Assembly: GCF_034479635.1 (NCBI RefSeq)
Contig: NZ_CP140153.1
Location: forward strand, 503,501 to 567,500
Source of the DNA: Guyparkeria halophila
Lineage (GTDB): Bacteria; Pseudomonadota; Gammaproteobacteria; Halothiobacillales; Halothiobacillaceae
Direction of reading: 5' to 3'
Length of the DNA: 64,000 nucleotides
Part shown: piece by piece, positions 10,967 through 31,787 of the stretch
How the letters are laid out: each line of letters begins with the position of its first letter
How positions within the stretch are numbered: position 1 is the first letter of the stretch
Notes under the pieces: generated by a model
Database searches by the model: none
Told to the model about the DNA's origin: nothing
The model's input: only the letters and a program-made list of their open reading frames with translations
Position numbers and translations under genes: made by a program

Positions 10967-11530
10967 TCAGTCCACCCGCGAAAGCAGGGCGGCGCGCAGC
11001 TTGTCCGATAGCGGCGGCTCGGCCAGCCAGATGCCGAAATAGGCCCGCGCCAGTTCGCGGTCGTCCGACTCGAAGCGGGTCTCTCCATTGAGGCTCAGGC
11101 TCAGTCGCGGCCCCTCGGGCTCCCAGTCGAGTCGATAGCGATCGCCGTCGGTGACGTCGATCATGGCGTTCTGGATCGCGTCGATCTTGGGACGGATGAT
11201 CTCGCGCTGTTCGGCCTCGTACTGATCGTCCAGGGCCGCCCAGGTGGCCTTGCGGATGTCCTCCACGCCGACGTCCCGGTGGTATTCGAGGATCAGGGTC
11301 ATGGGCACCTCGGCGTTGACGATGGCGGCCTTGTCAGCCTCGGCCGGGGCGTAGAGCGCCGCGTCGTACACGTCCCAGAGCATGTAGCTGGCGGTGCCCG
11401 ATCCCAGCAGGACCAGCGGGGTCTCGCCCAGCGCACCCGGTGGAGTGACGTCCTCGGCGGCAGCCGGGACGAGCGCCGCGCCGATCATCATTGCCAGGCC
11501 GGTGCCCAGCAGGGCCTCGCGGCGGATCAC
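10967..11530 (-). CDS. Chalcone isomerase-like periplasmic protein
   Basis: A 187-residue protein with a cleavable-looking N terminus (RREALLGTGLAMMIGAALVPAAAED) followed by a chalcone-isomerase-like fold: GETPLVLLGSGTASYMLWDVYDAALY and the later YFGIWLAEPPLSDKLR segment are typical of the bacterial family. Bacterial members are not known to isomerise chalcones, and some bind fatty acids. It starts with GTG at 11530, overlapping the DUF3833 stop by 4 bases, and is the last gene of the six-gene light-regulon candidate operon. Confidence 0.78.
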   Translation of the reverse strand: MIRREALLGTGLAMMIGAALVPAAAEDVTPPGALGETPLVLLGSGTASYMLWDVYDAALYAPAEADKAAIVNAEVPMTLILEYHRDVGVEDIRKATWAALDDQYEAEQREIIRPKIDAIQNAMIDVTDGDRYRLDWEPEGPRLSLSLNGETRFESDDRELARAYFGIWLAEPPLSDKLRAALLSRVD

Positions 11531-12081
11531 GGCGCACTCCCGTCCGGGTCGGACTTGGTGAAGAACAGCGTCACCTCGCCGACCCGGATGCCGAATTTCT
11601 TCACGGTCGCCCGGTTGATCACCACGTTCTCGCTCTGCCGGATCATCCAGTCGTCGAAGGCGACGTCGATGGTCGAGTCGCCATAGGGCAGGCGCAGCAC
11701 GTAGCGCCAGTTCAAGGCCTGGCCCATCTCCCTGCCTTCGGCGGTGCCGACGATATCGCCGGCCCGCCCGACGTAGGTCTGCTCGCCGGTAGGCGTGATG
11801 CGCCAGGTGCGCTGGTCGGTCTCGCCGTCGTCGTAGACGAAGTCCTCGTCGAGGACGAATTCCTCGCCCTCCCAGTAACCGTCGATCTCGACGCGGAACT
11901 GACGTTTGATTTCCCCGCCCCGGCTCTCGAATATCCCGTAGGCCCAGGTCTGGCCCTCGAAGTAGTCGGTCAGGTCGAAGGCGGGCGTAGTGCCCCGGAA
12001 CTGCTCGAGTTTCATGCTGCTGCATCCCGTGAGTAACAGGGTGAGGGCGACGGTTGCCGCCACGGTGACGCGTCGAATCAT
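11527..12081 (-). CDS. DUF3833 lipoprotein
   Basis: A 184-residue lipoprotein with lipobox LLLTGC (acylated Cys near residue 20). The DUF3833 domain includes FEGQTWAYGIFESRGGEIKRQF, DEDFVYDDGETDQRTW and the basic-acidic strand pattern NWRYVLRLPYGDSTIDVAFDDWM. The function is not established; members usually travel with cfa, DUF1365 and chalcone-isomerase-like genes, exactly as here. It overlaps both neighbours by 4 bases (ATGA upstream, GTGA downstream), so translation is probably coupled along the operon. Confidence 0.85.
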   Translation of the reverse strand: MIRRVTVAATVALTLLLTGCSSMKLEQFRGTTPAFDLTDYFEGQTWAYGIFESRGGEIKRQFRVEIDGYWEGEEFVLDEDFVYDDGETDQRTWRITPTGEQTYVGRAGDIVGTAEGREMGQALNWRYVLRLPYGDSTIDVAFDDWMIRQSENVVINRATVKKFGIRVGEVTLFFTKSDPDGSAP

Positions 12082-13388
12082 GGCGTGGTTCCTCGCAGGG
12101 TGGTTGGTCTCAATTGGGGTTCGGTGTCGGTCAGCTGGCGGAAGACCAGCCAGGCGGCCGCAAGCTTGAACGCCACGGGCAGCGCGCCGTAGGTGACGGC
12201 CAGGGCGGTGGTCTCGCTGTCGCCGGCCTCGAAGCCGGCCAGTGCCAGCACGCCGTAGCCCACTCCGACCGCCACGGCCAGGGCGAGCTTGGTGGCCAGT
12301 CCCAGCAGGCCGAAGAACAGCCCGGCGCGGTCACCGCCGCCGTCGTCACTGTCGATGCCGGCGATGTCGGCCTGGATCGAGGCCGGCAGGGCCATGTCGG
12401 CGCCCAGGCTCAGGCCCGAAACCGCGCAGATCAGGGCGAACCAGGCGACGTCCCCGCTCCCCAGCCACGGCGCGAACGAGAAGCTGATCGCGGCAAGCAG
12501 GATCGAGGCGCCCCAGGCGCGCCGCTTGCCGATGCGCCGCGCCACCGCCGTCCAGGCGGGCAGCGCCGCAATGCCGGCACCGAAATACAGCAGCAGGAGC
12601 CAGCCCAGCCAGTCCTGCGCACCCAGCCGATCGGCGACGAACATCAAAAACAGCGCCGCCGGGATGCCGTTGGCCAGGTTGTTGAGGAAATAGCCGCCCA
12701 GCAGGCCACGCAGGCGGTGGTTGTGCTTGAGCAGCGGCCAGCCGTGACGCCAGTCGACCTGCGGGCGATGGACGGCCGGCTCTGGGGTGGCCGCCGCCAT
12801 GAGGAGAAAGCCGGCTGGCAGCCCGATCGCCATCAGCCAGAACACGGCCGTGAGTACGTCCGCCGGGGCCTCGCTGCCCAGTAGGATCGGCAGGGCGGCG
12901 GCGAGCACGGTGCCCACCAGGGCCAACCCCTCGCGTCCGGCCGCCAGCCGGGTGCGCCCGTGCGGCGACGGGTCGGCCTCCGCGCCCAGGCTGGTGTAGG
13001 GCAGCTGGATCATGGTCCAGCCGAGGAAGGCGGCCAGGCCCCAGAGGTAGAGGTGCCAGAGGCCGACGTCGTCGTCCGGGCGCAGCAGGAACCACAGCGA
13101 GGCGATCAGCAGCGGCATGCCGGCGCCCATCAGCCACTTGCGTCGATGGCGGCCGGGGATCCGGTCGGAGAGATAACCGACCACCGGGTCGGTAATCACG
13201 TCCCACAGCCGGGTGAGCATCAACGCGGTGCCGACGGCGGCCAGTCCCAGCCCCAGTTCGTTGGCGTAGAACGGCGGCAGGTAGACGTACAGCGGAATAC
13301 CCATCAGCGCCAGCGGCAGGCTGGGGGCACCGTAGGCGAGTACCTGCCATAGATTCAGTCGCGGCGTTGTGCTCGCCGTCGGGTTCAC
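12078..13388 (-). CDS. MFS transporter (sugar:cation symporter-like)
   Basis: A 436-residue carrier with about 12 hydrophobic segments, of the MFS_2/GPH type (LTRLWDVITDPVVGYLSDRIPGRHRRKW near residue 55-80 is the diagnostic loop). The GTG at 13388 is chosen because it overlaps the cfa stop by 4 bases (GTGA) and gives the family N terminus; the longer open frame would extend deep into cfa. The substrate is unknown. Relatives in cfa/DUF1365 clusters may move a lipid or its precursor, but this is inference from context. Confidence 0.82.
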   Translation of the reverse strand: MNPTASTTPRLNLWQVLAYGAPSLPLALMGIPLYVYLPPFYANELGLGLAAVGTALMLTRLWDVITDPVVGYLSDRIPGRHRRKWLMGAGMPLLIASLWFLLRPDDDVGLWHLYLWGLAAFLGWTMIQLPYTSLGAEADPSPHGRTRLAAGREGLALVGTVLAAALPILLGSEAPADVLTAVFWLMAIGLPAGFLLMAAATPEPAVHRPQVDWRHGWPLLKHNHRLRGLLGGYFLNNLANGIPAALFLMFVADRLGAQDWLGWLLLLYFGAGIAALPAWTAVARRIGKRRAWGASILLAAISFSFAPWLGSGDVAWFALICAVSGLSLGADMALPASIQADIAGIDSDDGGGDRAGLFFGLLGLATKLALAVAVGVGYGVLALAGFEAGDSETTALAVTYGALPVAFKLAAAWLVFRQLTDTEPQLRPTTLRGTTP

Positions 13389-14635
13389 GGACGTTCCAGG
13401 ATGACCTGGGCGACGTTGATCCGGCCGGCGAGAAAGCCCGCCTCGCAATAGGCGAGGTAGTAGCGCCAGGTCTGACGGAAACGGTGATCGAACCCCATGA
13501 TGTCCAGTTCGTCCTCGACGGCGTCGAAGCGCTCGCGCCACCGGGCGAGCGTGCGGGCATAGTCGTGACCGAACAGGGCGGTCTCGCGCACCGACAGCCC
13601 GGCGGCGGCCGCCCCGGCCTCGAAGCGCTCGATCGAGGGCAGCATGCCGCCGGGGAAGATGTAGAGCTGGATGAAATCGGGTTCGCGGCGGTAATCCTCG
13701 AACGCGTCTTCGTCGATGGTGATCACCTGGATCGCCGCGCGGCCGCCGGGCTTGAGCCGGTCATGAACCGTCTGGAAGAACGTCGGCCAGTAGCGCTCGC
13801 CGACCGCCTCGAACATCTCGATCGAGACGATGTGATCGAACCGTCCGTGCTGGTCGCGGTAGTCGGTCAGTTGCAGGCGGGCGCGGTCATCGAGGCCGGC
13901 CGAGGCGAGCCGGTCGCGGCCGTAGGCGAGCTGCTCGGTGGACAGGGTCAGCCCGTCGACCTCGAGGCCGCGGCGGGCGGCGGTCTCGGCCAGCCCTCCC
14001 CAACCGCAGCCGATCTCCAGCAGCCGGTTTCCCGGGCGGGTCTCGAGCCGATCGAGCAATCGGTCGTACTTGCGTTGCTGGGCGGTGGCCAGCGACTCGT
14101 CGGGCTCGGCGAACACCGCCGCGGAATAGGTCATCGACTCGTCGAGCCACAGCCGGTAGAAGTCGTTGCCCAGGTCGTAGTGCGCCGCGATATTGCGCCG
14201 GCTGCCGCGGCGGTGATTGGCACGCAGCGCATGCTGGATGCGATGACCGAGTCGAGCCCAGAAGCCGGGGCGCAGCTCGTGGCCGATCGCCTCGACGTTG
14301 CGCGCGCCGATCTCGAGCAGGCCGGTCAGGTCATCGGTGGTGAAGTCTCCCTCGATGAAACCCTCGGCGATGCCGATGTCACCCAGGCGGGCGATGCGGG
14401 AGAGCAGTCGCGTGGGATGGAGCAGGTGCACGCTGGCCGACAGCTCGGTTTGCTCGGTACCGGTGCACTCGGCCACGCCGCCATCCTCGGTGGTCACCCG
14501 GAGGCGGCCGATGCGGATGTTGGCGAGGAAATGACCGACCCAGCGGGCGCTCAATGGCAGCGCGTGTTCGGCCGGCCGCTCGCCGGCGGTCGAACCCGAG
14601 ACCGGGCTCAGGTTCCGTGTCTGGACGATGGGCAT
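13385..14635 (-). CDS. cfa: Cyclopropane-fatty-acyl-phospholipid synthase family methyltransferase
   Basis: A 416-residue SAM-dependent enzyme that adds a methylene or methyl group to unsaturated acyl chains of membrane phospholipids. Key motifs are AHYDLGNDFYRLWLDESMTYS split over residues about 165-190, the SAM loop LLEIGCGWGGLAE, MFEAVGERYW and YIFPGGMLPS. The start at 14635 has GGAGGT six bases upstream and lies 28 bases inside the end of DUF1365. Together with the oxidoreductase and DUF1365 genes it could make cyclopropane, methylated or furan fatty acids; the exact product cannot be read from sequence. Confidence 0.88.
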   Translation of the reverse strand: MPIVQTRNLSPVSGSTAGERPAEHALPLSARWVGHFLANIRIGRLRVTTEDGGVAECTGTEQTELSASVHLLHPTRLLSRIARLGDIGIAEGFIEGDFTTDDLTGLLEIGARNVEAIGHELRPGFWARLGHRIQHALRANHRRGSRRNIAAHYDLGNDFYRLWLDESMTYSAAVFAEPDESLATAQQRKYDRLLDRLETRPGNRLLEIGCGWGGLAETAARRGLEVDGLTLSTEQLAYGRDRLASAGLDDRARLQLTDYRDQHGRFDHIVSIEMFEAVGERYWPTFFQTVHDRLKPGGRAAIQVITIDEDAFEDYRREPDFIQLYIFPGGMLPSIERFEAGAAAAGLSVRETALFGHDYARTLARWRERFDAVEDELDIMGFDHRFRQTWRYYLAYCEAGFLAGRINVAQVILERP

Positions 14636-15408
14636 GAACTGACCTCCGATGCCGGTGGTGGTGGGCTCTTGTGGAAACGCCCACCCTTGAGCCAGATTTT
14701 CAGGGCCTGCCAATGGATCAGGCCGATGACCTTGACGGTGAGAAACGGGATGCGCAGTGCCTCGAGCATCAGTCGTCCATCCGTGAGCTCGCGACGTTGC
14801 GCGTTGTGGGTAGCGACCAGCGTCAGGGTTTCCTCGCCATCCGGGCCGAGTTCGGTCTCGCGGATCGACACGCCCAGCCGCTCGCCGGGGCGCGAGAGGC
14901 GGAAGTGGTAACGCATGTTCATGGGAAGGAACGGCGAGACGTGAAACACCTTGTCGGCCTGGGCGCGAAAGGGTTTTGCCAGCGGACGGCCATGGTCGTG
15001 CAGGAAATAGTGGTGATGTCCGCCGAAGGTGTTGCTGACCTCGCAGTCGATCGCGACCAGCACGCCGGTCCGGTCGTGGCAGTACCAGACGGTCAGCGGG
15101 TTGAACTGGTAGCCGAGCACCCGCGGATAGGCCGAGACCAGGATCGTGCCGCCCTCGATGTCGATGCCCTGGGTGCGGGCGATGGCCGTGATCCAGTCGC
15201 GCAGCGGCATGTCGCGGCGCGGGCCGTGATCGCGATCGTGGATCGAGAACAGGTTGAAACGGTTGTGCGACAGCAGGCGCTGATTCGGGAACCCGGCCTC
15301 GAGGTCATCGAGATCGACCAGCAGTGAAAACACGCGATAGCGAAAGCGGTAGCAGGCCCGCGTGAACCGCTGGTGCATCACCCAGCCCTGGTAGAGCGCC
15401 GAGTTCAC
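14608..15408 (-). CDS. DUF1365 family protein
   Basis: A 266-residue DUF1365 protein, recognised by YRVFSLLVDLDDL, GYQFNPLTVWYCHD, VSNTFGGHHHYFL and the C-terminal IHWQALKIWLKG. The biochemical role is not established; the family nearly always sits between a flavin amine-oxidase-like gene and cfa, as here, and is linked to modified fatty acids. It starts with GTG at 15408, overlapping the oxidoreductase stop by 4 bases. Confidence 0.88.
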   Translation of the reverse strand: MNSALYQGWVMHQRFTRACYRFRYRVFSLLVDLDDLEAGFPNQRLLSHNRFNLFSIHDRDHGPRRDMPLRDWITAIARTQGIDIEGGTILVSAYPRVLGYQFNPLTVWYCHDRTGVLVAIDCEVSNTFGGHHHYFLHDHGRPLAKPFRAQADKVFHVSPFLPMNMRYHFRLSRPGERLGVSIRETELGPDGEETLTLVATHNAQRRELTDGRLMLEALRIPFLTVKVIGLIHWQALKIWLKGGRFHKSPPPPASEVSSCPSSRHGT

Positions 15409-16736
15409 GCCGCCTCCGAGCCGTCAACCGGGGACGCGCTTTCCCACGGAATGGTCGCGCCGAGCTGCCGGGCGATGGCCACGGCCGAGGCCAGTCCGTC
15501 CTCGTGGAAGCCGTAGCCCGTCCAGGCGCCGGCGTAGAAGGTGCGACGGTGCCCTTGCAGGGCCGGCAATTCGGCCTGGGCGGCCACCGCCCGGGCATCG
15601 AAGACCGGGTGGTAATAGGTGATCTCGCGCTCGACGAGAGACTCGCGGGGCGGCTCGAAGGGGTTGAGGGTCACGAGCCAGTCGTGGGCCGCGTCCAGTC
15701 GCTGCAGGTGGTTCATCCAGTAGGTCACGGCCACGGCTCGCTCGCCGTCGGCGTCACGTCGGCCCAGGTAGTTCCAGCTCGACCAGACCTGGCGTCGGCG
15801 GGGCATCAGGTTCGTGTCGCGATGCAGGAAGGCGCGATTCTCCTGGAAGCGGAACGAGCCCAGCACGCCGGCCTCGGTCGCATCCGGCCGGTCGAGCGAG
15901 GCGAGTGTCTCATCGGCGTGTCCCGCCATCACCACCGCATCGAAGCGGCGATCGTATTCGGGCAGCGTGACGCCGTTTTCATCCCGATCGACCCGGTTGA
16001 CGGGGTGTGCCGGCAACGCCACGAAACGGCGTTCGGCCAGCATCCGGTCGACGTAGCGTCGCGAGCCGCCCTGTACCGTTTCCCATTGCGGGCGATCCTG
16101 CACGTTCATCAGGCCGTGGTTGTCGAAAAACTGCAGGAAACTTCGTGCTGGGAAGGCGCGCATCTGTCGGGTCGGGCAGGACCAGATCGCCGCGGCCATG
16201 GGCAGCAGGTAATCCTCGGCCAGTCGCGGCGAAAAGCGGTGCTGCTCGAGGAATTGGCCCAGGGTAAGTGTGCCGAGCGAATCGCCGGCGAGCGCCGCCT
16301 TGCCCAGGCGATTGAAGCGCAGGATCTCGGCGACCATGCGCAGGAAACTGGGTCGCAGCAGGTTGCGGCGCTGGGCGAACAGGGTATTGAGGTTGTCGCC
16401 GCTGTACTCCAGTCGACCGTTGTCCATGCTCATGCCGAACGACATGTCGGTGGGCTGGGTGGCGATGTCGAGTGACTCGAGCAGACCGAACAGATGCGGG
16501 TAGTTGGGCCGGTTGCAGACGATGAAGCCGCTGTCGACCGCCACGCCCCCGCCGCGGCCATCCTCGACCAGGTGGGTATGGGTGTGGCCGCCGATGTAGT
16601 CGTTTCTCTCGAACAGCGTGACGCGATGCTGCTGGCCCAGCAGCCAGGCCGCGCCCAGCCCGGCAATGCCCGAACCGATCACGGCGATCTCGAGCGGTCG
16701 GTCGGTTGGCGATGTAAAGAGAAGGGTCTGGCTCAC
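15405..16736 (-). CDS. FAD-dependent amine-oxidase-like oxidoreductase
   Basis: A 443-residue flavoprotein. The N-terminal Rossmann motif [17 protein letters not shown] with the downstream acidic residue [12 protein letters not shown] binds FAD, and [22 protein letters not shown] near the C terminus is the second FAD motif. This subfamily resembles carotenoid/fatty-acid desaturases and accompanies cfa. The start is GTG at 16736, with GGAG six bases upstream. It is the first gene of the operon, and its promoter region contains four tandem 11-base-spaced boxes (16771-16811) matching a LitR/CarH-type operator. Confidence 0.85.
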
Positions 16737-16770: not shown

Positions 16771-16811
16771 TTCTATAGTCAGTGTATAAACGTTGTACAG
16801 GTTTTGCACAG
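16771..16811 (-). promoter_or_regulatory. Predicted LitR/CarH-type operator, four tandem boxes
   Basis: Read leftward, four boxes of the form nTnTACAn follow at exactly 11-base steps: CTGTGCAA, CTGTACAA, TTATACAC and CTATAGAA. Box 2 and box 4 also contain -35-like TGTACA and -10-like TATAGA with a 16-base spacer, so bound repressor would cover the promoter of the leftward oxidoreductase operon. Tandem 11-base boxes are the known operator layout of CarH. The same array occurs at litR (31747-31787). Confidence 0.7.
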
Positions 16812-17004
16812 AAATTTGCGTCGCCATGTTTTCCGTTTCCATCTTCCCGATCTTCCGCGTGGGTTGTCGCCCGCCGGACGACACGGCCAGGTCCGGTCGG
16901 CGTGGCCGAATGCGGGCTCTGCGCGGTCGTCGTCGCCATCGGGGCGGTTCTCGGCATCGCCTGCGGTATTGCCAGGATGCGGCATGGTCGGGCCCTGGGT
17001 CCTG

Positions 17005-17163
17005 ATGGCCCGACAGGCGCGCAATCACCGGGCCAATCGGCCGAGCAAGGTCTGTCCAGTCTGTCGCCGACCGTTCACTTGGCGACGCAAGTGGGCCCGC
17101 GACTGGGATCGCGTTATCTACTGCTCCGAACGCTGCCGCCGCACCAGGAAATCGCATGACTGA
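17005..17163 (+). CDS. DUF2256 zinc-ribbon-like small protein
   Basis: A 52-residue protein. The core [18 protein letters not shown] followed by VIYCSERCR has two CxxC-like pairs and matches DUF2256, a family found beside photolyase/cryptochrome genes. The two cysteine pairs suggest metal binding. It starts at ATG 17005, and its last 8 bases overlap the start of the photolyase gene, so the two are probably translationally coupled. Longer in-frame starts exist upstream but would add non-family sequence running through the operator. Confidence 0.8.
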
Positions 17164-18754
17164 ATCCTCTGTCCGTCACCTGCTGGTCGTGCTCGGCGAT
17201 CAGCTCAATGCCGACAGCGTCCTGTTCGATGATGCCGATCCGACTCGTGATGTCGTCTGGATGGCGGAGGTGGCCGGCGAGGCGACCCATGTCTGGTCGC
17301 ACCAGTCGCGCATTGCGCTGTTTCTCGCCGCGATGCGTCACTTTGCCGCCGATCGCCGGGTGGATGGCTGGCGGGTCGACTACCGCGAGCTGCCTGCCCG
17401 TGCCGAGACCGACGCCCTGCCGACCCTGGAGGCGGCGCTGGTCGAGGCGATTGCGCGCTGGCGCCCCGATCGCGTCATCTGGGTCTGTCCGGGCGAGTAC
17501 CGATTGCGACGGAGCTTGAAGGCGGTGGTCGAGGAGGCTGGGGTTGTCGCCGAGGAACGACCCGATCGGCATTTCCTGGTCGACGAGTCGTGGTTCGGCG
17601 AATGGGCGGGCGGGCGCAAGACCTTGCGCATGGAGCATTTCTACCGTGCCCAGCGCCGTCGGTTTGCCGTGCTGATGGATGGCAAGGAGCCGGTCGGGGG
17701 CAAGTTCAATTTCGATGCGGCCAATCGGCGGTCGTTCGATGCCCGCGGGCCGGGGCTGTTGCCCGAGCCGGCCCGGTTCTCGCCCGATCGGATCACCCGG
17801 GCGGCGCTCGATCGGGTGGCCGAGCGATTCGCCGATCATCCCGGCGGTGAGCATCAGGCCCTGGAAAACTTCGACTGGCCGGTTACCCCGGCCCAGGCCG
17901 AGCAGGCGCTAGCCGATTTCCTCGAACAGCGGGCGACCGGATTCGGCGATTACCAGGATGCGATGTGGACGGGCGCGCCCTGGCTGTATCACTCGCGGTT
18001 GTCCGCGGCGCTCAATCTTAAGCTGATCGACCCGCGCCGAGTGATCGAGGCGGTGCAAGCGGCCTATCGAGACGGGCGTATGCCGCTGGCGGCCGCCGAG
18101 GGGTTCATTCGACAGGTGCTGGGCTGGCGCGAGTTCGTCCGCGGGTTGTACTGGTGGGCGATGCCCGACTACGCGGCCGGCAACGCGCTCGAGGCGCGGG
18201 AATCGTTGCCGTCGTTCTACTGGCAGGGGCGAATGCCCGGTGGCGAGGCTATCCCGATGGCCTGTCTCGATCAGACGATTGGCCAGACGCTAGAACTGGG
18301 GTACGCCCACCACATCCAGCGCCTGATGATCACCGGGCTGTTTGCCCAGTTGCTGGGCGTGCGCCCGCAGGCGGTCCACGAGTGGTATCTCGCGATCTAC
18401 GTCGATGCCGTCGAATGGGTGGAGCTACCCAACGTGATGGGCATGTCCCAGTACGCCGACGGTGGGCTGATGGCGAGCAAGCCGTATGTCGCCTCGGGGC
18501 GTTACGTGCAGCGGATGAGCAATTACTGCAGCCACTGCCGCTTCGATCCGGGCGAGGCCACGGGGGAGTCGGCCTGCCCGTTTACCACCCTCTACTGGGA
18601 CTTTCTGCTGCGCCACCGGGAGCGATTCGCCCACCACCCGCGCACGGCGCTGCAGTGGAAGCATGTCGAGCGCATCGACGCCCCACGCGCCGCGGCGATT
18701 CGCGAACAGGCCGAAGCATGGCGTGAGCGGCTGTCACGATCCGCTGGCCGTTAG
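17156..18754 (+). CDS. phrB: Cryptochrome/photolyase, FeS-BCP (PhrB-type) family
   Basis: A 532-residue protein of the bacterial (6-4) photolyase/cryptochrome group. It begins with the antenna domain ([14 protein letters not shown]) and has the family motifs [41 protein letters not shown] and the C-terminal [21 protein letters not shown]. Cysteines in MACLD, NYCSHC and SACPF fit the four-cysteine 4Fe-4S site of this group. It repairs UV photoproducts using light, or acts as a light sensor. It is coupled to DUF2256 and shares an intergenic region with a LitR-type operator, so light induction is predicted. Confidence 0.9.
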
Positions 18755-18951
18755 CGATACTCCGCGCGAATCCGGAATTCCCTGTTTTTTTCATGGGCTT
18801 GTGCGTCTCGTCGTGGCCGGCTCTGGTGGCCCCGGACGCGGATTTCTGGGATAATCTAGCGTTGGAGCGCGCCTGATTTTTGCGCTTGTCCCGCCGCCTA
18901 ACCGAGTTGCCCCTTGCCGGGCGGCTTGGCCTTCACCGGAGCCCCCGGCCC

Positions 18952-20838
18952 ATGCGCGAGCTCGCTGCCATTCGACTGATTCGCCGCAAGGCGATGCTGC
19001 TTGCCGTGCTGGGCGTTTTCGTCAGCGGCATTCTGGTCGCGGTGGTAACGGCGGTCCCCATGTACCAGTCGGCGCGCGACGGACTCGAGCGCAGCACCTT
19101 GATGGGGATCCAGGCGCAGGGAGCGGCCCTCGACAACCTGGTGCAACGCTACGAGGGTGTTGCTCGCCAGGTCACCAGTCGCACCGAGATCCGTCGCCGT
19201 CTGGAATCATATGTCGACGGGGAGCTCTCCCTGGATCGCCTGGTCGCCTTCACCCAGTCGCACGTGTCCGATGCGGTCGACAGCTCACCGGCGTTGGTGG
19301 GCATCAAGCGTCTGGGCCCGTTCGGCGAGGTGATCGTCGACGCGGGCGCCGGCGAGATGCCCGGCCTGTCGATGCTGGTCGAGCTCGACGACATCGAAAG
19401 CCGGCTGGTGCGTTCCGGTGATCGCATCATCTGGCGGACTCTCTCTCCGATCCGCGACGACCAGGGCCGCCGGCTGGGCACGGACGTGCTGTTCTTCGAG
19501 GTCGACAGCCTCGTTCGGTTGCTCAATCGCGCACGCGTTCTCGAGCCATCGGCGCGCGGTTTTCTTCTCGATCGCGCGGGTGGGCGCGTCGTGGGCGTCG
19601 ATGCACTGGACGAGGGCCTGGTCATGTCGTCGGCCAGCGAGGTGCTGACGGGAGACTTGTCGCGTGTCGACCCGGCCCGGTCGGGCGTGGTCTGGCCGGA
19701 CCTGGACAGCCAGGGTGGTGTGCTGTTCTACACGCCGGTGGGCGGCGGGCGTTGCCTGCTGCTGGTCGAGGTCGGGTTCTGGGCGTTCTACCAGCCGGTG
19801 ATCATGCGCCTGCTCTGGCCGTTGGGTCTGGTGTTTCTGTTGTTGCCCATCGTCGCCTGGTTGACCGCCCGGGCGCTTCGCCCTGTCCTGCAGCGCCTGA
19901 CCGAACAGTCCGAGGAGCTGGAGCATTCCGCCGGCGAGATTCGGCTGGCTGCGAGTGTGTTCGAGGGCACCGGCGAGGCCGTGATGATCACCTCGCCGAA
20001 CCATCGAGTCCTGCGCGTCAACCCGGCGTTCACCCGCATTACCGGTTTCGAGGGCGACGAGGTGGTCGGCCGGCCGATGACCGACCTGTTCCAGCTGGAC
20101 GAGTCGGACAGCGAGCGCCTGGAGGCCATTTGCAGCCGGTTGGGGCGCGATCACAGCTGGGAAGGGGAAATGGACTACCGCAACCGGCAGGGCGAGCGCA
20201 TGACCGCCCTGCAGACCATCAGTCAGGTGGCGGACGATCAGGGACGCGTCAGTCATTACATCCACATCTTCAACGACATCACCGAGAGCAAGGCCGCCCA
20301 GCGGCAGATCCGCCACCAGGCACGCCACGACGCACTCACGGACCTGCCCAACCGTGCCTCGATGTGGTTTTGCATCGAGCAGGCCGTCGAAGGCGCACGA
20401 GCGGACGGCGGGCGCGTGGCCGTGTTGTTCCTCGACCTCGACTACTTCAAGGAGGTCAATGACCGGCTCGGTCACGCCATGGGTGACCGATTGTTGCGCG
20501 AGGTGGCCGAGCGGTTGCGTCGCCTGCTGCGCCACGAGGACATCGTCGGCCGGCTGGGGGGCGACGAGTTCCTGATTCTGCTGGAGGGGTTGCCGGCACC
20601 GCGGTTTGCCGGTCAGGTAGCGCACAAGGTGATCGAGGCGCTGACCCAGCCGTTCGAGATCGAGGGCGAATCGATCCAGATCGGTGTATCGATCGGCATC
20701 GCGGTGTTCCCGGGGCAGGCGGCGGATGCCGACGGGCTGATTGGTCACGCTGATTCGGCCATGTATGAGGCCAAGGCGGCCGGGCGCGACACGTACCGTT
20801 ACTTCGATCGGGGTGTCGGGGCCACCGCGGGCGACTGA
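18952..20838 (+). CDS. Membrane PAS-GGDEF diguanylate cyclase
   Basis: A 628-residue protein: membrane segment (about 13-36), a periplasmic sensor region (about 40-290), second membrane segment (LLWPLGLVFLLLPIVAWLTA), a PAS domain (about 325-440) and a GGDEF domain (about 455-620). The active-site motif GGDEF is intact, and RHED five residues before it is a proper inhibitory I-site, so it should make cyclic di-GMP under product feedback. There is no EAL domain. I chose ATG 18952; a TTG at 18880 would add 24 residues. A bidirectional terminator follows. Confidence 0.88.
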   Translation: MRELAAIRLIRRKAMLLAVLGVFVSGILVAVVTAVPMYQSARDGLERSTLMGIQAQGAALDNLVQRYEGVARQVTSRTEIRRRLESYVDGELSLDRLVAFTQSHVSDAVDSSPALVGIKRLGPFGEVIVDAGAGEMPGLSMLVELDDIESRLVRSGDRIIWRTLSPIRDDQGRRLGTDVLFFEVDSLVRLLNRARVLEPSARGFLLDRAGGRVVGVDALDEGLVMSSASEVLTGDLSRVDPARSGVVWPDLDSQGGVLFYTPVGGGRCLLLVEVGFWAFYQPVIMRLLWPLGLVFLLLPIVAWLTARALRPVLQRLTEQSEELEHSAGEIRLAASVFEGTGEAVMITSPNHRVLRVNPAFTRITGFEGDEVVGRPMTDLFQLDESDSERLEAICSRLGRDHSWEGEMDYRNRQGERMTALQTISQVADDQGRVSHYIHIFNDITESKAAQRQIRHQARHDALTDLPNRASMWFCIEQAVEGARADGGRVAVLFLDLDYFKEVNDRLGHAMGDRLLREVAERLRRLLRHEDIVGRLGGDEFLILLEGLPAPRFAGQVAHKVIEALTQPFEIEGESIQIGVSIGIAVFPGQAADADGLIGHADSAMYEAKAAGRDTYRYFDRGVGATAGD

Positions 20839-30219: not shown

Positions 30220-30669
30220 TCAGTCGGCTGCGCCCGACTCCTGATGGGATTCGAGCTCGGCGATCCGGGCACGCAGGCGCTCGTTCTCCTCGCGCATTTG
30301 GACCAGTTCGGTCACGTCGCGCTGGATGCCGATGAAGTAGGTCAGGTGATCGTCGTCGTTGAATACCGGGGTAATCGACAGCTCGTTCCAGAACAGGCTG
30401 CCATCCTTACGGTAATTGCGCAGCACCACGCGGGTCGCCTCGCCGCGGCGAATGGCCTCACGGATTTCCGCCAGTGGGCTCTGGTCTCGATCTCCGGCCT
30501 GTAGGAAGCGGCAGTCCTGGTAGAGGATTTCTTCCTCGGAGTAGCCGGTCAGTTCCTCGAAGGCCTGATTCGCATAGATCAGGATGTTGTCCGAGCCTTC
30601 CTGCTCGGCAATCACGATCCCGTCCGTGGAGGCGTTGACCGCCTTCTTCAGCAGATTCGCATCCAGCAT
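30220..30669 (-). CDS. Short LOV blue-light photoreceptor
   Basis: A 149-residue single-domain LOV protein. The photoactive cysteine is residue 53 in QDCRFLQ, followed by FMN-contact motifs VLRNYRKDGSLFWNELSITPV and YFIGIQRDVTE; a short coiled-coil tail (REENERLRARIAELE) follows. The QDCRFLQ variant, length and tail closely resemble Pseudomonas putida PpSB1-LOV (the PplR1 type), which sits beside a LitR regulator. ATG 30669 has AGGA at good distance. It is 87 bases downstream of litR in the same direction and probably co-transcribed. It is expected to form a cysteine-FMN adduct under blue light and to act on LitR. Confidence 0.92.
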   Translation of the reverse strand: MLDANLLKKAVNASTDGIVIAEQEGSDNILIYANQAFEELTGYSEEEILYQDCRFLQAGDRDQSPLAEIREAIRRGEATRVVLRNYRKDGSLFWNELSITPVFNDDDHLTYFIGIQRDVTELVQMREENERLRARIAELESHQESGAAD

Positions 30670-30756: not shown

Positions 30757-31774
30757 TCAGTGCCGGGTCAGGCGGGCCGGGGCCGGTTCGGGGCGTCCGA
30801 GTGCCTGAGCCACTTGTTCGCGACAATGCTGGATGTCCTTTTCCACCAGATCGCGCCAGCGCTGCATGAAGTCGACCGCCTGGTCGCCGTTCTCGGGTTC
30901 GAGCAGGGGCAGCTCGCACCAGAAGACCCGCGCCCCGGCGGCGCTGCCGACCGGATGCTCGGGTGGTGTCGTGTCGAGGCGAATCCAGGCGCGTGCCCCC
31001 CCAGCGGCGCGCCATCTGCTCGCGCTGAGTCTCGTTGAGGCCGGTTGGCAGCAGCCGGACATGGAACTGATCGTCGTGCAGGGCGGTGAACAGTCGCAGG
31101 CCGCCGGCGGAGAACGGCCGGCCCGGGACCAGGTTGTCGATCACGATCACCGGGGCGGCGGGCCGCCCCGGTGCTTCGGCAACCCATTCCGCCCGCCCCT
31201 TGATGTACTCGGCCAGCCACACCAGCCCCAGGTCCCGGTCTGGCCAGGCGGTGCGCGCCTCGAGTTGGGCGAGTGCCTCGATCAGCACCTCGCGCAGATA
31301 GTCCTCGGGGGTGAGCCACATCAGGGCGGTAGCCTCGGCCGTGCGCAATTCGGATGGATCGAGGTCAATCGCCGCGCGCATCACCCGGTCGAGCAGCGAG
31401 CGTGGTGGCGAGATGGGAGATGGCGTCGCTGTCGGCGGGGCGGGTTCGCGCGTCTCCCTGCCGGTGTCGGCCCCTTCCTGTTCGAGCAACGAGGCGATCT
31501 GGGCGAAGCCCATGCCGCTCTCGGCCAGCTCCTGGATGCGCTGGATGGTGCGGATGTCCGCCTGGCTGTAGAGCCGGTGTCCGGCCGGGGTGCGCGTGGG
31601 GCGGATCAGGTCGTAGCGACGCTCCCAGGCGCGCAGGGTGATCGGGTTGACCCCGGTGATCTGCGATACCGATCGGATGGGCAGCAAGGCCTGGCTTTCG
31701 GTTTCGGCTGGGCTGGATTCGGTCGTGGACAAGGCGCCACCTGCGACGTATCGAGTGATGTATAACTTCTGCAT
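30757..31774 (-). pseudogene. litR: LitR-type MerR light-response regulator, frameshifted
   Basis: The N-terminal MerR helix-turn-helix (IRSVSQITGVNPITLRAWERR, split here as IRSVSQITG and NPITLRAWERRYD; then GHRLYSQADI) and a middle domain read in one frame to RRWGG. At a run of seven G (30996-31002 on the opposite strand) the frame is lost; one G fewer joins it to a coding-like tail (ARAWIRLDTTPPEHP ... RPEPAPARLTRH) ending at 30757, giving about 338 residues. No cobalamin-binding histidine motif is seen, as in the class of LitR that works with a LOV protein. The span runs from ATG 31774; a TTG at 31732 with AGGTGG five bases ahead is more likely because the operator covers 31747-31787. Confidence 0.8.
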
Positions 31775-31787
31775 CGATATTGTAGCA
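31747..31787 (-). promoter_or_regulatory. Predicted LitR/CarH-type operator at litR
   Basis: Read leftward, four boxes at exact 11-base steps: TGCTACAA, CGATGCAG, TTATACAT and TCGATACG. The third is a perfect nTnTACAn, and the others are weaker. The array has the same orientation and the same strongest third box as the one at 16771-16811. It lies between litR and the divergent SDR gene, so autoregulation and control of the SDR/NTF2 pair are predicted. Confidence 0.55.

Follow-up and report, generated by a model that had tools for sequence, protein, structure and literature searches.

Upstream of a six-gene operon of probable lipid function in Guyparkeria halophila lies an array of TnnACA-type boxes in 11-bp phase, and it is likely that this array is the operator of a light-responsive, LitR-like repressor gated by a LOV protein. 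The repeats, their phase, their conservation and their placement before the operon were observed directly, as were two further promoters at which repeats of this type recur and a litR-lov gene pair on the same stretch of DNA. The stretch analysed here (the window) comprises 64,000 nucleotides of contig NZ_CP140153.1, and comparisons were extended to the whole genome, to 27 genomes of the family Halothiobacillaceae, to 369 genomes of the class and to 80 named loci with short LOV genes.

The box array

The array reads on the minus strand, where its four boxes start at positions 16811, 16800, 16789 and 16778, that is, in exact 11-bp steps, and the sequence confirms what a preliminary description had reported on this point. 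Box 1 (CTGTGCAA, 16804..16811) is a TnnGCA pseudorepeat whose position would suit a -35 element, and several relatives read TTGYRCA at this place. Boxes 2 (CTGTACAA, 16793..16800) and 3 (TTATACAC, 16782..16789) are full TnnACA repeats, the former lying between candidate promoter hexamers and the latter providing a candidate -10 for the FAD operon, TATACA, as well as TATAAA on the plus strand, while box 4 (CTATAGAA, 16771..16778) is a TnnAGA pseudorepeat that is unconserved in the genus. The array thereby contains at least three tandem 11-bp TnnACA repeats, full or pseudo, which is the pattern of CarH/LitR direct-repeat operators, and the block has a GC content of 36% in a window of 66% GC.

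Measured against T(G/A)TACA, the array reaches 22 of 24 (5+6+6+5 for its four boxes), and the next-best four-box score in the window, among the places listed, is 16, at the litR promoter. None of 5000 dinucleotide shuffles of the surrounding 200 bp reached 22 (maximum 17), nor did any of 20000 dinucleotide shuffles of the 60-bp AT-rich core (maximum 19), and the zero-mismatch triple TRTRCA-N5-TRTACA-N5-TRTACA is found at a single place in the 2.45-Mb genome, which is this array. Taken together, the window scan, the genome pattern search, the mirrored control (see below) and the shuffles led us to reject chance phasing, in agreement with the earlier judgement that such phasing is hard to obtain by chance. 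Elsewhere in the genome, a 3-mismatch match to the triple pattern was noted (L037); a 2-mismatch site (L036), located before a multi-PAS gene, was considered as a further target and dropped, since that gene was found in only one of 11 genus genomes.

The lipid-type operon and its divergent neighbours

All six genes of the operon are on the minus strand. The first encodes a FAD/amine-oxidase-type oxidoreductase (15405..16736; hereafter the FAD gene), whose ORF start at 16736 is approximately 35 bp downstream of the boxes, and it is followed by genes for a DUF1365 protein (14608..15408), a CFA-synthase-type methyltransferase (CMAS, 13385..14713, with the true start probably inside this ORF), an MFS transporter (MFS_2, 12078..13541) and a DUF3833 protein (11527..12081), and, in last place, by an ORF with a chalcone-isomerase-like domain in its 3' part (10967..12025). 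The role in lipids that we infer concerns this operon as a whole. On the plus strand, approximately 170 bp from the boxes, the divergent side begins with DUF2256 (16984..17163) and continues with a photolyase-related protein (17156..18754), which among solved structures comes nearest to PhrB/(6-4) photolyases and CryB, and, directly downstream, with a PAS-GGDEF protein (18880..20838). The latter gene presumably shares an operon with the photolyase, and its position raises the possibility that c-di-GMP signalling is linked to light.

The array may well overlap the promoter of the FAD operon. Candidate hexamers fall in boxes 1 and 3 of most family genomes, and in many of these genomes such a pair, with a distance of 16-17 bp, reaches 7-8 of 12; the highest scores of promoter candidates on the FAD strand are 7-9 of 12. 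In this genome, pairs that begin in box 2 score better than those that begin in box 1, and the TGTACA of box 2, followed after 16 bp by the TATAGA of box 4, scores 8 of 12. A strict sigma-70 scan and a terminator scan returned nothing at either the FAD operator or the litR operator. On the opposite strand, box 3 offers a -10 of the form TATAAA, TATAAT or TATAAC, accompanied by some -35, in seven of nine genus members; in this genome the TATAAA of the photolyase side is present, with no acceptable -35. A shared divergent promoter at the boxes is possible.

The genes opposite FAD vary, and in the sequences compared the boxes follow the FAD gene and not the gene opposite to it. DUF2256 and photolyase are found there in five family genomes (G000, G003, G005, G009 and G010), and the expectation that relatives with both operons would also keep the boxes is borne out in all five, these loci having been fetched by the box pattern, so that they do not constitute a blind test. 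An SDR gene lies opposite FAD in G015, G019 and G021, all with boxes kept; only photolyase fragments remain opposite in G001 and G002, and contig ends lie nearby in G004 and G007. The suggestion that the photolyase side is driven from the boxes is weakly supported: the boxes persist in the three genomes that have the SDR gene, and the TATAA-type -10 in box 3, seen in the genus, is the sole indication of a promoter on that side.

Conservation of the boxes in Halothiobacillaceae

The FAD gene was detected in 17 of the 27 family genomes. With at most one mismatch allowed, the phased-triple pattern has 32 matches, distributed over 17 of the 27 genomes, and the mirrored (backwards) pattern has none in the same set. 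Among the matches, 19 adjoin FAD and 11 adjoin a PAS-MCP gene, and one (G013, L077) has no recognised gene of the system nearby. Beside the FAD gene, and on its strand, such a triple is present in 15 of the 17 FAD-bearing genomes, and the other two (G012 and G015) have a phased pair; none of the 17 is without phased boxes. It is of note that G008 (L075) has kept phased boxes, with one mismatch in the third, at a place where neither FAD nor photolyase was found within 1.5 kb; a CFA-type ORF lies downstream and an ORF resembling the GGDEF gene lies opposite.

The phase itself was assessed in 15 genomes on the 250 bp upstream of the start of the FAD match, regions chosen without recourse to the box pattern; G002 and G019, in which the FAD gene is split over contigs, were left out. 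On the FAD strand, 30 box pairs have a lag of 11, with all 15 regions represented, 17 have a lag of 22 and 3 a lag of 33; the remaining lags from 7 to 35 yield 0-2 pairs each, and the mirror control yielded one box pair in all.

Mean pairwise column identities among nine genus members are 0.96, 0.94, 1.00 and 0.31 for boxes 1 to 4, respectively, and the box columns are 0.97 identical in these genomes, as compared to 0.68 for the linkers and 0.36-0.42 for the flanks. In a second genus, represented by seven genomes, the box columns reach 0.86, the linkers 0.45, the flanks 0.27-0.30 and the position of box 4 0.32; in both genera the sites had first been located by the box pattern. Because of these identities in two genera, boxes 1-3 look to be under selection and box 4 does not; the fourth box seems to be particular to this genome and was given up as an essential part of the operator, its columns in the genus being at background conservation. 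The initial proposal of a LitR/CarH-type operator by the lipid-operon promoter thus gains from the conservation, the phase specificity and the position on the FAD strand, with the correction that three boxes, not four, are conserved. In that second genus, a fourth phased box is present in G022, G024 and G025, and a fifth in G022.

Further candidate operators at litR and at a PAS-PAS-MCP gene

A second operator, at about 31759-31787 on the minus strand, is located at the litR promoter and consists of GCTACA, GATGCA and TATACA at 11-bp steps, where GCTACA forms part of an extended -10, TGCTACAAT. Since its three-box score in the window is only 14 of 18, the claim is carried by conservation and not by score. 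A phased 11-bp pair, with a GATGCA/GATACA-like box and a TATACA/TGTACA-like box, is found in 21 of 24 family litR loci and is absent from L054, L059 and L061; the extended -10 precedes the pair in 15 of the 24, and the -10 box is in 11-bp phase in 11 genus loci and off by 1-2 bp in four others. An operator at this place would also account for the unusual N-terminus 'MQKLYITRY', which would stem from conceptual translation of operator sequence; translation probably does not include the stretch ahead of the TTG at 31732.

The other array lies outside the window, upstream of a gene for a PAS-PAS-MCP protein (L035 1501-1528, corresponding to genome C1:1667727-1667754). Upstream triples scoring 16-17 of 18 are present in nine of ten orthologs, this number being that of orthologs with an upstream region (a 3' fragment in G010 was left out), and mirror maxima are 11-14. 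The boxes span two genera (L084-L088, L092, L297 and L298 besides L035), and the ortholog of G011 has no phased boxes. In G006, which has no FAD match, both the LitR-LOV pair and the PAS-PAS-MCP target are retained.

The LitR-like regulator and its short LOV partner

The gene of the LitR-like MerR regulator lies 15 kb from the boxes, on the minus strand at approximately 30757..31732, its end being approximate and its start probably the TTG at 31732; the MerR HTH at the N-terminus of the product corresponds to PF13411. Of the two MerR_1 genes detected in the genome, the second belongs to a different type, to judge by its sequence and by its neighbour, which we take to be an IHF-type gene. The litR frame of this assembly is broken near 31000, in the C-terminal third, and is intact in 10 genus relatives (L039-L048). 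The break may be a real lesion or a sequencing error; accordingly, this genome may carry a defective switch, or a base call may be wrong.

The nearest solved relatives of LitR by sequence are T. thermophilus CarH (5c8d), 3whp and 2jml. A CarH-like fold is predicted by the AF2 model of an intact relative, L094 (mean pLDDT 81.9), whose best match in a Foldseek search is full-length CarH; since that match has an rmsd of 12-15, the match of the C-domain to T. thermophilus LitR is the firmer one (Z 14.0, rmsd 3.0, 172 aligned). Class I LitRs are characterised by W-x9-EH together with cobalamin-binding motifs, and DxHxxG is a B12 motif. Neither W-x9-EH nor DxHxxG occurs in any of 21 aligned LitRs, no B12-binding Pfam model gave an above-cut-off match in five LitRs (two have a sub-threshold B12-binding_2 match), and the NCBIfam CarH model gives 59 bits vs a cut-off of 400. 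An N-terminal MerR HTH, a four-helix-bundle domain that is kept in the L094 model and the loss of the B12-binding motif in the 21 proteins were all found, so that by modelled fold and motifs the protein fits a class II LitR. Identity over the whole length between the Guyparkeria LitR and 16 aligned LitRs from outside the family is 20-25%.

The short LOV protein (30220..30669, minus strand) has 149 residues and combines a LOV domain and the photoactive-Cys motif YQDCRFLQ with the lack of an effector domain, as is typical of short LOV photoreceptors. Its gene is found near litR in 22 of 24 family LitR loci, and both misses stop at contig ends; the cysteine is a given in this count, because the loci were found with CR[FY]L[QH]. 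The YQDCRFLQ motif is invariant in 10 aligned LOV proteins. The solved structures closest to it, with 7r5n and 3sw1 (the latter presumably PpSB1-LOV) among them, are of short LOV proteins; they share the photoactive-Cys motif and align over nearly the full length (134-143 of its 149 residues in the top five matches to solved structures), the present protein coming from Halothiobacillaceae. Another LOV-like domain is encoded in the genome at C1:829648-830001, inside an open frame of 1385 residues.

A proposed light switch and its alternatives

The LitR-like MerR protein is the likely binder of the boxes. In the dark, it would occupy the 11-bp direct repeats with one DNA-binding domain per repeat, covering the promoter of the FAD-oxidoreductase/DUF1365/CFA-type operon and keeping this operon off. 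Under blue light, the LOV partner would form a flavin-cysteine adduct and remove LitR from the repeats, upon which the lipid operon would be transcribed. LitR would further repress its own litR-lov promoter, by way of the same repeat type, and the PAS-PAS-MCP gene elsewhere in the genome. Binding, dark repression and LOV gating are the steps that we infer in this scheme. Gating by LOV is likelier than gating by B12, because no B12 motifs were found in LitR and its gene adjoins that of a short LOV protein.

Three other explanations have to be weighed. The block could be a core promoter and nothing else, with boxes 1 and 3 as its -35 and -10, and both the distance between the hexamers of these boxes and the AT-rich composition are compatible with that idea; however, box 2, which would then be part of the spacer, is conserved to the same degree as boxes 1 and 3, extra phased boxes extend downstream in three family genomes, phased boxes recur at litR and PAS-MCP, and the match to the sigma-70 consensus is poor, all of which makes this explanation highly improbable. 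It is at least as improbable that a B12-dependent CarH (class I LitR) binds the boxes as a tetramer, as the preliminary description had implied. The geometry of the operator is indeed that of the CarH 11-bp repeats, as given in the available portions of PMC9304148 and PMC8156234, and the LitR C-domain has the CarH fold in the model, but the class I motifs and above-cut-off profile matches are wanting in the LitRs aligned or scanned, the only other MerR_1 gene found in the genome is of a different kind, and the regulator resembles a class II LitR without B12 motifs, encoded next to LOV, so that the idea of a B12 tetramer was abandoned.

Somewhat less improbable, and still unlikely, is that LitR does bind the repeats and responds to a signal other than LOV, the LOV protein acting elsewhere. 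What can be said for it is that evidence for an interaction between LOV and LitR comes from P. mendocina only, as far as the available part of PMC9758184 goes, and that the Guyparkeria LitR is so distant from the LitRs aligned from outside the family; what weighs against it is that LOV follows litR at nearly all of the family loci and that the motif around its cysteine does not vary in the LOV proteins aligned. The LOV-gated LitR operator hence remains the reading that we prefer, and in Guyparkeria the array is a clean candidate operator for such a LitR-LOV switch.

Comparison with known light-responsive systems

According to the available portions of PMC9304148 and PMC8156234, the CarH/LitR operators of Thermus thermophilus, Bacillus megaterium and Myxococcales consist of tandem 11-bp repeats of the form nnnnTnnACAn and also mix full repeats with pseudorepeats. 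The Guyparkeria array resembles them in its head-to-tail 11-bp TnnACA repeats, three or four in number, over a candidate promoter, and differs in that it precedes a lipid-type operon and not carotenoid genes. In addition, and unlike in CarH systems, the candidate LitR is without the B12 motifs that were looked for and has a LOV gene adjacent to it.

Class II LitRs offer a second point of comparison. The operator reported for this class is TGTACA-N12-TGTACA, the DNA binding of the P. mendocina PmlR2/PmSB-LOV system is reportedly lost in light, and the light-inducible genes of P. putida PplR1-3 include the photolyase PhrB and UfaM (PMC9758184, in the part of the text available). As in P. mendocina PmlR2/PmSB-LOV, the LitR and short LOV genes are adjacent in Guyparkeria, and the half-sites are TRTACA as in the class II LitRs of Pseudomonas; in contrast to class II LitR, the FAD operator of Halothiobacillaceae has 11-bp direct repeats only. 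The class II pair T(G/A)TACA-N12-TGTA(C/T)A was not encountered in it, the counts at lags 17-19 on the FAD strand of the 15 family regions being zero.

The operator type is one already known, and what invites closer study is a LitR without B12 motifs that would act on direct repeats alone, together with the PAS-MCP gene as a candidate target. We put forward only tentatively the full combination, in which a LOV-gated, B12-free LitR acts on pure CarH-style repeats and its regulon reaches behaviour through the PAS-PAS chemoreceptor-type protein and possibly GGDEF. If true, the 11-bp tandem mode of binding would be independent of B12 tetramers. Guyparkeria and its relatives are chemolithoautotrophs, and blue light would then switch behaviour genes in non-phototrophic sulphur oxidisers; the repeats at PAS-PAS-MCP predict light control of behaviour besides that of repair and lipids. 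In the open-licence literature, none of the Guyparkeria titles listed concerned a light response.

Distribution in the class and at named LOV loci

The FAD gene was detected at E 1e-60 or better in 114 of 369 class genomes. Box pairs were counted in 78 upstream regions, which are the best 80 of 116 rows minus two from the own genus. Within 250 bp of FAD there are 18 lag-11 pairs, in 10 genomes, and one in the mirror control; the 2 kb further upstream contain seven lag-11 pairs in the same 78 regions, and lesser peaks are seen at lags 20-22 and 32-34. Where the LitR-like HTH is strong, 13 of 35 genomes have a phased triple scoring at least 14 within 250 bp of FAD; the corresponding figures are one of 13 where it is weak and none of 30 where there is none (Fisher p 6e-5, with relatedness ignored and with the cut of 1e-15 for 'strong' set after the values had been seen), and the mirror control gave 2/35, 1/13 and 0/30. 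To judge by these sequences, the presence of the array tracks the LitR-like HTH across the class; 22 of the 35 strong-HTH genomes, including the LOV-bearing G187, G388, G269 and G364, have no triple of at least 14 by FAD.

At 75 named short-LOV loci outside the family, many of them from Pseudomonas, perfect pairs number 33 at lag 11, 34 at lag 18 and 31 at lag 19, and no lag reaches 4 in the mirror control; here, as in the 78 class regions, both strands were counted, so that palindromic boxes count twice. These peaks indicate that at least two spacings exist, of which the N12 pair described in the literature (lag 18) is one, and they prompt the question of how a single MerR-type family can act on 11-bp direct repeats as well as on 17-19-bp pairs. 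In L099-L173, TRTACA boxes with 11-bp and with 17-19-bp spacings often occur within one promoter. Among all 80 named loci, of which the five from Halothiobacillaceae stop short of the FAD gene, a triple of at least 17 of 18 was found only once, in Thioalkalivibrio. In this locus, from Thioalkalivibrio denitrificans (L119), the phased boxes (12767-12804, 17 of 18) stand before FAD, and a short LOV gene and a FAD/DUF1365/CFA/MFS/DUF3833 operon are found together.
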